A program made the translations under genes and the position numbers. Under the pieces are notes generated by a model. That model had not been told where the DNA came from. It was given only the letters and a program-made list of their open reading frames with translations, and did no database searches. 58,536 bases of DNA from Desulfobulbaceae bacterium (GTDB taxonomy: Bacteria > Desulfobacterota > Desulfobulbia > Desulfobulbales > Desulfocapsaceae), in the NCBI GenBank assembly GCA_031287565.1, contig JAITSS010000017.1, forward strand, positions 1 to 58,536, in the 5' to 3' direction. Each line of letters opens with the position of its first letter. The first letter of the stretch is position 1. This document shows positions 49,974 to 52,775 of this stretch, piece after piece.

Positions 49974-50096
49974 TGTTTTGCTGAAGTGACAGGGGCCAAA
50001 ATATGGCATTTTTCGCTACGTGGAACCCAGTAGTATACACCGGAGCCAGTCATTACTGAAGGAAAGAATTGTCGCGGCCCGGCCTGGGGTATAGAT

Positions 50097-50130
50097 ATTT
50101 GTACAGGCGGCGCGGCTAATTAGTACAAAT
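50097..50130. promoter_or_regulatory. Candidate enhancer-binding site
   Basis: ATTTGTAC (50097-50104) and GTACAAAT (50123-50130) form an exact inverted repeat with an 18-base centre. It lies about 93-126 bases upstream of the sigma-54 -24 element, the usual distance for a bacterial enhancer-binding protein. The regulator is not encoded in the window. Confidence 0.45.
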
Positions 50131-50222
50131 TCTTGGATATTTATCGCCATGCCGGGTGAATCGCCCGACGATTTTGTCGTGAATTGTCGCTAATTCAAAG
50201 AAATACAATTGTCCATCGTCAG

Positions 50223-50238
50223 TGGCACGGTATTTGCT
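50223..50238 (+). promoter_or_regulatory. Sigma-54 (RpoN) promoter
   Basis: TGGCACG-GTAT-TTGCT matches the -24/-12 consensus (TGGCACG-N4-TTGCW) at every fixed position, with the GG and GC exactly 12 bases apart. The transcript should start near 50249. Activation would need an enhancer-binding protein; an inverted repeat upstream is a candidate site. Confidence 0.85.
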
Positions 50239-50248
50239 TAAGTAAAGG

Positions 50249-50305
50249 CATCTCTTCTCTCCTTTCTCCTGAAAAAGCCGGTCTCGCCGCAGAGACCGGC
50301 TTTTT
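50249..50305 (+). ncRNA. Candidate sigma-54-driven small RNA
   Basis: The predicted RNA starts near 50249 and reaches a strong terminator after about 57 bases, with no reading frame. The 5' half is a pyrimidine tract (TCTCTTCTCTCCTTTCTCCT), which is complementary to Shine-Dalgarno-type sequence and is expected to be single-stranded. The 3' half is the terminator stem. Short RNAs with such anti-SD tracts and a terminator are a known trans-acting design. The alternative is that the hairpin is an attenuator in the leader of the DUF362 gene, 43 bases downstream. Expression is not shown by sequence alone. Confidence 0.5.
50272..50305 (+). terminator. Strong Rho-independent terminator
   Basis: AAAAAGCCGGTCTC (50272-50285) pairs perfectly with GAGACCGGCTTTTT (50292-50305) around the 6-base loop GCCGCA. 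Because both flanks are A- or T-rich it can act in both directions, and it is the strongest hairpin in this part of the window. Confidence 0.9.
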
Positions 50306-50347
50306 CGCTTTTCTGGGCTTGCCGTTTTTCGCGAACGGGGAAATTGT

Positions 50348-51334
50348 ATGCCGGTCAATCCGCGCATCCGGCAATTCCGCCGCCCGTTCCCCGTCGCCGC
50401 CATGTCCGAATCGTCGTCGCCCGCCGTTTTCCTGCAACATACCGATTATCAGAAAGAACATCTCGAACTGGCCATCGCCCGTTTCGCGCCGCATCTGGGT
50501 CTCGACCGGTCGTTTCATGGGCGGACGGTTCTGCTTAAACCGAATCTGATCAGCGCCCTGGCGTCGCCCCTCGCCTGCACCGATACGCGGATTTTGCTCG
50601 CCATGGCCCGTTGGTTTCTCGATCATGGGGCTACTGTGTTGGTCGGCGATTCTCCGGCCTTCGGCTCGGCGGCCTTGGTCTTACGTCGCCTGGGCGTCAT
50701 GCCGGAATTAAAAAAACTGGCGGCGCGCGTTGTCGAATTTTCCGCATCACAGCCGCTCGATGTGGCCGGTTCGCGGCTCTCTGTCGCCAGGCAGGCTCTG
50801 GAATGCGATCTGCTGGTCAACCTGCCGAAGATCAAAGCGCACGGCCAGATGTATTACACCGGCGCGGTCAAGAACTTTTTCGGCCTGGTCATCGGCATGA
50901 AAAAATCCCGGCTGCACATGACGCATGGGAAAAATCATCACGAATTCTCCACGCTGCTCAGCCATTTGCCAAGGCTTGTCGCGCGGCAAATCACGGTCGC
51001 CGACGCGGTTGACGTGATGCACGTCAGCGGGCCTGTGCGCGGCGCGCGACTTACGGTCGGTTGCCTGGCGGCGGGCCTCGACCCATTCGCCGTCGATACC
51101 GCCCTGATCGCGGCCTTGGAACTGGCGCCGGAGCGCTGCCCGTTGCAAAGTCTCGCCTTGGCAACGAACCAAGCATCCTCTTTCCCGGAAAATATTCTGT
51201 ATCCATGTGAATCGCCTGAAAACTTTTACGGAAGCGGCTTCATTGCCCCGTCAGCGCTCGCGCCGGTTCGTTTTCATTCCTTGCGATTTGTGGTAAGCAC
51301 CGCGAAACGTTTGGCTTTGGCCCTGCGTCGTTGA
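50348..51334 (+). CDS. DUF362 domain-containing protein
   Basis: A 328-residue DUF362 protein. The family's marks are VLLKPNLISALASPLACTD, then LVNLPKIKAHGQMYYTGAVKNFFG and an invariant-looking RQITVADAVDVMHVSGP. There are no ferredoxin cysteines, unlike many DUF362 members, so it is the short form. Function is unknown. ATG 50348 has GGGGA nine bases upstream; ATG 50402 is an alternative. It is the first gene downstream of the sigma-54 promoter and terminator. Confidence 0.85.
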   Translation: MPVNPRIRQFRRPFPVAAMSESSSPAVFLQHTDYQKEHLELAIARFAPHLGLDRSFHGRTVLLKPNLISALASPLACTDTRILLAMARWFLDHGATVLVGDSPAFGSAALVLRRLGVMPELKKLAARVVEFSASQPLDVAGSRLSVARQALECDLLVNLPKIKAHGQMYYTGAVKNFFGLVIGMKKSRLHMTHGKNHHEFSTLLSHLPRLVARQITVADAVDVMHVSGPVRGARLTVGCLAAGLDPFAVDTALIAALELAPERCPLQSLALATNQASSFPENILYPCESPENFYGSGFIAPSALAPVRFHSLRFVVSTAKRLALALRR

Positions 51335-51372: not shown

Positions 51373-52125
51373 ATGTTGGGTTTTCATGGCAGAACCGCGC
51401 TTGTCACCGGCGGCAGTCGCGGCATTGGCCGGGCCATCGCCGCCCGCCTGGCGGAAATGGGCGCCGATCTGGTCGTGAATTATGTGCGGCATCGGAAAGA
51501 CGCCGAGGAAACGGCGGCTATGGTGGGCAAGGCTGGGCGGCGCTGCGTGTTGGTTAAAGCCAATGTCGCGGTTCAGGCCGATGTCGAGCAGCTTATGGAG
51601 GTGGCGCGTCTCGAATTCGGCAAATTGGATTTTCTCATCAGTAACGCCGCGTCAGGGGTGTTCAAACCGGCGCTGGAGTTGACCGAGCGCCACTGGAATT
51701 GGGCGATGGACATAAACGCCAGAGCGCTTCTGACTCTGGTGCAAAAGGCCCTGCCGCTGATGCCGCCAGGCAGCCGCGTTATCGCCGTTTCCAGCCTGGG
51801 CGCGGTGCGGGCGATAGAAAATTATACCACCGTCGGCGCATCGAAGGCGGCTCTGGAATCCTTGGCGCGGCATCTGGCCGTCGAGCTGGGGCCGCGTGGA
51901 ATTCATGTCAATACCATCAGCGCGGGCGCGGTCGATACCGACGCCCTCAAACATTTTCCAAACCGTGAACAGATTCTTTCGGCGGCGATTCAGCGGACGC
52001 CGCTTGGTCGGTTGACGACGCCTGAAGATGTGGCCGACATCGCGGTTTTTCTCTGCGGCGAATTGTCGAAGATGGTGCAGGGGCAGGTGATTACCGTCGA
52101 TGGCGGCTATGCCATTCGTGGTTGA
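51373..52125 (+). CDS. fabL: Enoyl-ACP reductase FabL-like SDR
   Basis: A 250-residue short-chain dehydrogenase. NADPH-site TGGSRGIGRAIA near the start, VNYVRHRKDAEET (FabL-like), the SNAASGVFKPALELTERHW segment, active site ENYTTVGASKAALESLARHLAVE and VDTDALKHFPNREQIL, which together resemble FabL enoyl-ACP reductases rather than 3-ketoacyl-ACP reductases. It would catalyse the last reduction of fatty-acid elongation. AGGAGCG precedes the ATG. No other fab gene is close, so this is an identification by motif only. Confidence 0.75.
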   Translation: MLGFHGRTALVTGGSRGIGRAIAARLAEMGADLVVNYVRHRKDAEETAAMVGKAGRRCVLVKANVAVQADVEQLMEVARLEFGKLDFLISNAASGVFKPALELTERHWNWAMDINARALLTLVQKALPLMPPGSRVIAVSSLGAVRAIENYTTVGASKAALESLARHLAVELGPRGIHVNTISAGAVDTDALKHFPNREQILSAAIQRTPLGRLTTPEDVADIAVFLCGELSKMVQGQVITVDGGYAIRG

Positions 52126-52163: not shown

Positions 52164-52775
52164 ATGACAGCGAAGGTATTCATCCTGCGTCAATCCCTGC
52201 TGTTGGCCTCGGCCTCGCCCAGGCGTAAGGACCTGCTCGCTTCGGTCGGCATTGATTGCCCGGTGTATCCCGCCGCCATCGACGAAACCCGGCGGCGGCG
52301 CGAAGCATCGGAAGGCTATGTTCGCCGCATGGCCGAGGAAAAAGCCCTGGCGGTGGCGCGTCGCTTTCCCGAATCGTATGTGTTGGCCGCCGATACCGTG
52401 GTCGCGCGAGGAACATATCTGCTGGGGAAACCGGCGTCCGTCCAAGAAGCGGCGCGGATGCTGACCGAGCTTTCCGGCAAGACCCATCGCGTGCTGACTG
52501 CATATTGTATCAGCCAGGTATCAAGCGGATTGCATATCCTTGAACATGTCACGTCCAAGGTGCGCTTCGCCGACTGGGACGCGGCGACCATCGCCGCCTA
52601 CGCCGCCTGCGGCGAACCGCTGGATAAAGCCGGAGCCTATGGCATTCAGGGCGCGGGCGCCTTTCTTGTGGCTGGTGTCGTTGGCTCATCGACCAATGTG
52701 ATTGGTCTGCCGCTGGCTGAAGTGATCAGGCATTTCCTCGATTTGGGCGTCGTCGTCCCGGCGGGCACTCCCTGA
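52164..52775 (+). CDS. maf: Maf-family nucleotide pyrophosphatase
   Basis: Hydrolyses non-canonical or pyrimidine nucleoside triphosphates. The 203 residues hold SLLLASASPRRKDLLASVG at the start, the catalytic aspartate in VLAADTVVARG, LSGKTHRVLTAYCI, DKAGAYGIQGAGAFLV and GSSTNVIGLPLAEV. These are the Maf motifs; the loop TYLLGKPAS fits the YhdE subgroup. It lies 38 bases after the reductase gene. Confidence 0.92.
   Translation: MTAKVFILRQSLLLASASPRRKDLLASVGIDCPVYPAAIDETRRRREASEGYVRRMAEEKALAVARRFPESYVLAADTVVARGTYLLGKPASVQEAARMLTELSGKTHRVLTAYCISQVSSGLHILEHVTSKVRFADWDAATIAAYAACGEPLDKAGAYGIQGAGAFLVAGVVGSSTNVIGLPLAEVIRHFLDLGVVVPAGTP

Follow-up and report, generated by a model that had tools for sequence, protein, structure and literature searches.

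What does the short interval in front of the DUF362 protein gene of this Desulfobulbaceae contig encode, and on what would its product act? Within the window, by which we mean the whole 58,536-nucleotide stretch of DNA that was analyzed, a sigma-54-type promoter box, a pyrimidine tract, and a terminator follow each other closely (Table 1). The original prediction read them as a regulated small-RNA gene outside the known families, and this is borne out by the promoter box, an upstream dyad, the covarying terminator, and the lack of an Rfam match. We hold it to be nearly certain that positions 50223 to 50307 constitute a real, conserved small-RNA gene of the sigma-54 type. Its product is probably an sRNA of ~60 nt that depends on sigma-54 and acts in trans, mainly by silencing outer-membrane porins.

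Table 1. Features at and near the predicted small-RNA gene (window positions)
Feature	Position	Strand	Basis and remarks
Inverted repeat of the original prediction, ATTTGTAC-N18-GTACAAAT	50097-50130		Exact; the sister species has both arms
Predicted activator (EBP) site GTACAAATTCTTGGAT	50123-50138	+	Order-wide dyad; sister species shares the window copy
Sigma-54 (-24/-12) promoter TGGCACG-GTAT-TTGCT	50223-50238	+	Sequence TGGCACGGTATTTGCT and box in homologous loci
Predicted small RNA	50249-50307	+	Start ~50249 (+/-2) from -12 spacing; conserved body of relatives begins there
Unpaired near-invariant tract AUCUCUUCUCUCCUUUCUCC	50250-50269	+	Predicted seed for pairing at porin mRNA starts (Shine-Dalgarno and start codon)
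Intrinsic terminator, 16-bp stem and 6-nt loop	50270-50307	+	Fold and covariation; outermost pair G-U
DUF362 protein gene, linked neighbor	50348-51334	+	PF04015, 138 bits; 67/72 family loci
Short-chain dehydrogenase gene, second in linked block	51373-52125	+	PF13561
Maf-family gene, third of the block in the window	52164-52775	+	PF02545

The pattern TGGCAC-N5-TTGC occurs without mismatch only once in the window, at the promoter position. With one mismatch, four cases were seen versus 6.4 expected, and therefore the box by itself is weak evidence. The window's own genome contains TGGCACG-N4-TTGC nine times and the pattern read backwards not once; eight of these exact boxes lie elsewhere in the genome (L001 to L008). 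Homologous loci offered an independent test, since the covariance model of the RNA holds no promoter. A high-scoring GG/GC sigma-54 box was found directly upstream of the RNA in 81 of 86 loci, and identical scoring of the stretch 250 to 300 nt upstream gave 1 in 85. The near-perfect RpoN promoter claimed at the outset was thereby corroborated. The 86 loci are the 98 model matches minus 12, namely, eleven copies of genomes already counted and one antisense hairpin. Among the five loci lacking a box, L069, L015, and L148 are near-misses, and L173 and L164 are doubtful matches. The transcript start follows from the usual spacing, with the C of the -12 GC counted as -12.

Conservation was analyzed in a first search of positions 50000 to 50350 against 58 genomes (the window's own and relatives). 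Many of the matches in the family cover the RNA from its predicted start to the hairpin, tract included, and the upstream flank aligns in the sister species G002 only (72%). Promoter, tract, and terminator are conserved together; the flanks are not. Among 257 genomes of the order Desulfobulbales, 128 were matched by a covariance model built from the RNA alone (R1; cut-off, E ≤ 1e-5), nearly always with a single copy; in the window's family, Desulfocapsaceae, 69 of the 93 genomes were matched. One genome, G100, harbors two full copies of the RNA (L178 and L179).

Furthermore, an exact scan with the tract core and the first hairpin bases was run on one genome each for 84,980 species and yielded 35 matches. 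These are labeled Desulfocapsa, Desulforhopalus, Desulfopila, Desulfoprunum, Desulfobulbus sp. Tol-SR, "Ca. Desulfatifera," Desulfobulbaceae, or Desulfocapsaceae; of the remaining labels, five read only Proteobacteria, Deltaproteobacteria, or delta proteobacterium, and one reads Desulfobacterales (L092). A scan of the phylum (395 sampled genomes) gave matches in 10, including four that do not belong to the order. Of these four matches, L379 has a clear sigma-54 box, L380 and L382 have weaker ones, and none is visible at L381. A UC-rich tract and a hairpin stand behind the sigma-54-like boxes of L379, L380, and L382, which suggests a deeper, diverged RNA family. A phage copy of the RNA was also considered and rejected: as judged by eye, the match L114 lies in unrelated sequence, and L115 matches on the opposite strand, at a strong ribosome site. 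The perfect 20-nt complement of the tract on this viral contig (~9380 to 9400 of L115, at an apparent gene start) is most likely a strong ribosome site by chance.

In the window, the covariance model matched positions 50244 to 50313 with 76.9 bits. None of the start codons ATG, GTG, and TTG occurs in 50249 to 50311; the predicted small RNA is noncoding, with its own sigma-54-type promoter box and its own intrinsic terminator. The pyrimidine tract that had been described between promoter and terminator is present, and its core ATCTCTTCTCTCCTTTCTCC is near-invariant across the window's family. Positions 50249 to 50313 fold with -28.1 kcal/mol (z = -6.6), leaving the entire tract unpaired, and both the best and the centroid fold contain the terminator alone. 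This terminator had been given as a perfect 14-bp stem at 50272 to 50305. It does exist and covaries, but the stem is longer, comprising 16 pairs from 50270 to 50307. In line with the covariation search that had been proposed for related genomes, the RNA is widespread and its hairpin pairs covary: in 86 distinct sequences, aligned by fitting to the covariance model, two-sided changes were found at 15 of 15 pairs, 94.8% of the cells were paired, and the covariation score was reached by no shuffle. An unfitted alignment of 25 sequences showed two-sided changes at 11 of the 15 pairs.

Approximately 100 bp upstream of the sigma-54 box, a dyad with the consensus GTAYAA-N4-TTGTAY is found order-wide. 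A score of at least 10/12 was reached in 92 of 101 loci versus 24 of 505 mononucleotide shuffles, a score that is fitted, given that these loci also supplied the motif; the fixed position, -89 to -106 in 85 of the 92 scoring loci, was not fitted. In 1.77 Mb of partly redundant DNA, dyad and box occurred together at 88 sRNA-like places and at 4 further places; of these four, L171 is again an sRNA locus. The dyad is likely an activator site. It is absent from the original prediction, which had noted an exact inverted repeat at the usual enhancer distance (ATTTGTAC at 50097 to 50104 and GTACAAAT at 50123 to 50130). The repeat is exact indeed, and the sister species retains both arms and the 18-nt spacing around a diverged spacer. 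However, the dyad shares only the right arm with it, and the likely enhancer is the dyad rather than the whole repeat.

Reverse-complemented, the tract reads GGAGAAAGGAGAGAAGAGAT(G), an idealized ribosome site leading into a start codon. Since an earlier single, exact search for ribosome sites had no Shine-Dalgarno-preserving control, a search allowing mismatches and a permuted control were added. With at most one mismatch, the target pattern AAGGAGAGAAGAGATG was matched 98 times in 91 genomes of the family; 31 of the matches fall on the antisense strand of the RNA itself, which leaves 67, or 66 once one repeated dnaK is merged. Only 52 target matches open an ORF of at least 80 aa or an ORF cut by the end of the stretch. 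Outer-membrane protein genes are opened by 25 of the 66 distinct matches: 14 belong to one porin family, 3 to a second porin family, and 7 to a TorF/Gcw_chp-like family, and 1 is a TonB receptor, with the naming based partly on similarity seen by eye and the family members not named below assigned by eye. The other 41 matches are not outer-membrane proteins. As for the models behind the names, the porins matched NCBIfam DESULF_POR1 below its cut-off, L239 of the second porin family scored above the Pfam Porin_2 cut-off, L302 was narrowly above the Pfam Gcw_chp cut-off (L142 resembles it with 26% identity), and L303 exceeded the cut-off of TonB receptor models.

In the control, the Shine-Dalgarno sequence, the ATG, and the spacer letters were kept and only the order of the spacer was changed. 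Searched in the same 91 genomes, it gave 40 matches, among which no recognizable outer-membrane protein was found (all were read, and 20 ORFs of at least 80 aa were compared with Pfam). The difference between 25/66 and 0/40 corresponds to a Fisher p of about 9e-7, where independent events are few because 14 of the 25 represent one porin family in two genera. The target prediction against mRNA ribosome sites that had been suggested originally thus returned concrete candidates. Among the pattern matches, dnaK appears in three genomes, G016, G093, and G097 (L237, L295, and L296). An outer-membrane protein of ~190 aa (L202 to L215 and L320 to L349) resembles the C terminus of the porin, and several genomes encode it near the porin gene. 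It was considered as a target and rejected, since no matching ribosome site was seen in the start regions that were read.

Owing to the dominance of one porin family among the pattern matches, porins were also gathered by protein homology, using two queries that had themselves first been noticed via their ribosome sites. Forty-three of the 52 porin loci were scored with the RNA of their own genome; the other nine comprise seven without an sRNA sequence and two with unparsed starts (L353 and L355). Measured against shuffled tracts, the 43 porins paired with a mean z of -3.8, compared with -0.97 for 40 Shine-Dalgarno-matched genes (p = 1.7e-11), and a Watson-Crick run of at least 8 was present in 34/43 and 5/40, respectively. 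After removal of the 17 porins that had been found by the pattern, the remaining 26 from 24 genomes still gave a mean z of -2.8 (p = 1.5e-7), 20 of them with runs of at least 8. The anti-Shine-Dalgarno character ascribed to the tract thereby gains specific candidate targets, the porins.

The same outcome had been obtained with 32 porins in earlier versions of this test. The first set aside nine rows for which no sRNA was known (they represent eight porins) and another nine that used the sRNA of a genus-mate; the second left out G000:C71, which has no complementarity, and had G000:C13 added by hand; the final version includes both. Runs of 8 to 9 nt, with weaker energies (-14.6 to -17.1), are also seen in four porins whose genomes gave no RNA match. 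No homologue of porin P0001 was found in 22 f3 genomes; f3 to f5 have their own version of the tract.

One of the three porin homologues in the window's own genome fits well. The start of porin C13, AAAAGGAGAAAAAGAGATG, pairs with -23.0 kcal/mol and ranks among the best 2.8% of the 465 gene starts sampled; in this sample, a few starts are counted twice and some ORFs are doubtful. The other two pair weakly (C46, -11.8; C71, -7.6). In the same genome, dnaK, groEL, and some nonporin genes rank equal to or above the C13 porin, with an 8-nt run at the groEL start (L217, C77:38906) and a 10-nt run at the dnaK start (L219, C32:92795). Possibly these complements mark further targets, or they are simply strong ribosome sites.

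Taken as a mechanism, the preferred reading would work as follows. An enhancer-binding protein at the dyad would switch on RNA polymerase-sigma-54, and the transcript would end at the intrinsic terminator. The UC-rich 5' tract, predicted to be unpaired, would likely pair with the Shine-Dalgarno sequence and the start codon of porin mRNAs, so that ribosomes would be kept off these mRNAs, and translation blocked, while the activator is on. TonB receptors, the TorF/Gcw_chp-like outer-membrane family, dnaK, and groEL would be further candidate targets.

This reading has to be weighed against the alternative named from the beginning, an attenuated leader: the sigma-54 promoter would drive the DUF362 operon, and the tract and terminator would form a read-through switch in cis, for example as a protein-binding site. 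The linkage is steady in the window's family (f1), where DUF362 lies directly downstream on the same strand in 67 of 72 loci, and four of the five misses lie at the end of the available sequence (L030 is a real miss). Moreover, in many f1 loci the first DUF362 start codon is only some 20 to 40 nt past the end of the model (34 nt in the window), leaving little room for a separate DUF362 promoter. DUF362 is also downstream in 9/13 f3 and 3/4 f4 loci and in the single loci of f7, f11, and f14. At 38 of 102 loci, one of the first two genes downstream is a relative of the short-chain dehydrogenase. On the other hand, the RNA is matched without DUF362 at L030, and no DUF362 gene was found within ~1.4 kb in f5 (0/6), f8 (0/1), f10 (0/1), and f15 (0/2); the f5 loci nevertheless retain the RNA with its box and tract. 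The RNA also has no start codon for a leader peptide, the best and the centroid fold of 50249 to 50313 show the terminator alone, and a role in cis does not predict the complementarity to porins. The leader alternative finds backing in f1 but not in f5, and we consider a purely cis-acting leader unlikely, though far from negligible.

The two roles are compatible, however, and for this reason the likelihoods that we attach to the competing readings overlap and do not sum to one. Transcripts that read through the terminator may extend into DUF362, in which case the terminated leader may itself be the trans-acting RNA, and one activation would both silence porins and meter DUF362. The close f1 spacing together with the porin complementarity is in keeping with such a double role, and the lack of linkage between RNA and DUF362 in f5 speaks against it; it is a sizable possibility, if not the one we expect. 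Alternatively, the tract could be a decoy or a general ribosome-site antisense: it would pair with whatever strong Shine-Dalgarno sequence it meets, or bind a protein, and have no specificity for porins. Its complementarity to an idealized ribosome site, the matches to dnaK and groEL, the 41 of 66 distinct matches that are not outer-membrane proteins, and the perfect complement on the unrelated viral contig L115 all agree with this. Nevertheless, Shine-Dalgarno-matched genes pair less well than porins, and the spacer-permuted control retrieved no recognizable outer-membrane protein in 40 matches. We regard a tract without porin specificity as improbable.

A wider proposal, less likely than not, is an envelope switch on sigma-54 that is order-wide, perhaps phylum-wide, in which a dedicated activator at the dyad would induce a 60-nt RNA serving both as the terminated DUF362 leader and as a trans-acting anti-ribosome-site silencer of porins, TorF-like proteins, and TonB receptors. 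If true, this would be the sulfur bacteria's counterpart of sigma-E/MicA-RybB on a different sigma factor. If the porin-silencing reading is right, outer-membrane permeability in these bacteria would be partly governed by a sigma-54 switch via RNA. Since the promoter, the activator site, the terminator, and candidate targets are in hand, the RNA is testable in cultured relatives. The conserved dyad could serve as bait for finding the activator and the signal that it reads. The divergent gene present in 24 loci (e.g., L082) was rejected as the activator, since it reads by eye as a histidine kinase, of the PAS/GAF type. Upstream neighbors vary in general; a phosphoglycerate dehydrogenase-like (serA-like) gene, also identified by eye, is found in 36 loci (e.g., L058).

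For comparison with known systems, the enterobacterial porin-repressing sRNAs are the obvious reference, which we take to be MicA and RybB. These have an unpaired seed and an intrinsic terminator. The porin-repressing sRNAs of enterobacteria are under sigma-E control (PMC1804206) and act on omp mRNAs. The likeness consists in a short RNA with a stress-type alternative-sigma promoter, an unpaired seed, an intrinsic terminator, and omp mRNA targets, which are predicted in the present case. In contrast to the enterobacterial RNAs, the present one has a sigma-54 promoter with an activator dyad instead of sigma-E, has no Rfam match, carries a UC-rich seed that spans both Shine-Dalgarno and AUG, and usually precedes DUF362. 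It was set apart from the sigma-E set because the sigma-54 box was found in promoter position.

Part of NcS25, a small RNA of Burkholderia cenocepacia, is complementary to the Shine-Dalgarno sequence on a porin mRNA, and repression of the porin was shown (PMC10117139, in the part available). It belongs to another phylum, the same part of the article reports no sigma-54 motif upstream of ncS25, and ncS25 shares its terminator with a neighboring gene, unlike the RNA described here. In a sulfate reducer, Desulfovibrio vulgaris, the available part of PMC4641369 lists four noncoding RNAs in the sigma-54 regulome, one of them upstream of DVU3282 in the DVU1419 regulon, labeled envelope stress, and that of PMC3333781 covers DVU0679 and its sRNA. 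These resemble our RNA in that sigma-54 is combined with a dedicated activator, a likeness by description; the portions of the two articles at hand give neither targets nor functions for the D. vulgaris RNAs. The literature on sigma-54- or RpoN-dependent sRNAs, as far as its accessible parts go, further includes an RNA derived from a glutamine synthetase mRNA. No published description of an RNA at 50249 to 50307 was found in a search that took in few subscription papers and no preprints.

At the gathering score, Rfam returned only two tRNAs and no family at the RNA. Below threshold, RsaE/RoxS (RF01820; 20.3 bits versus a gathering score of 79), the rpfG RNA (RF03023; 20.8 bits versus 75.9), and the Thr leader matched and were ruled out by their scores. 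The RF03023 consensus starts, as the locus does here, with a sigma-54-like GGCAC-N-TGC box that is followed by hairpins downstream. This start, GGCACAGAUACUGCAU (compared with window positions 50224 to 50311), looks like a sigma-54 promoter and not like RNA; RF03023 may be another sigma-54-driven sRNA whose family model includes the promoter.
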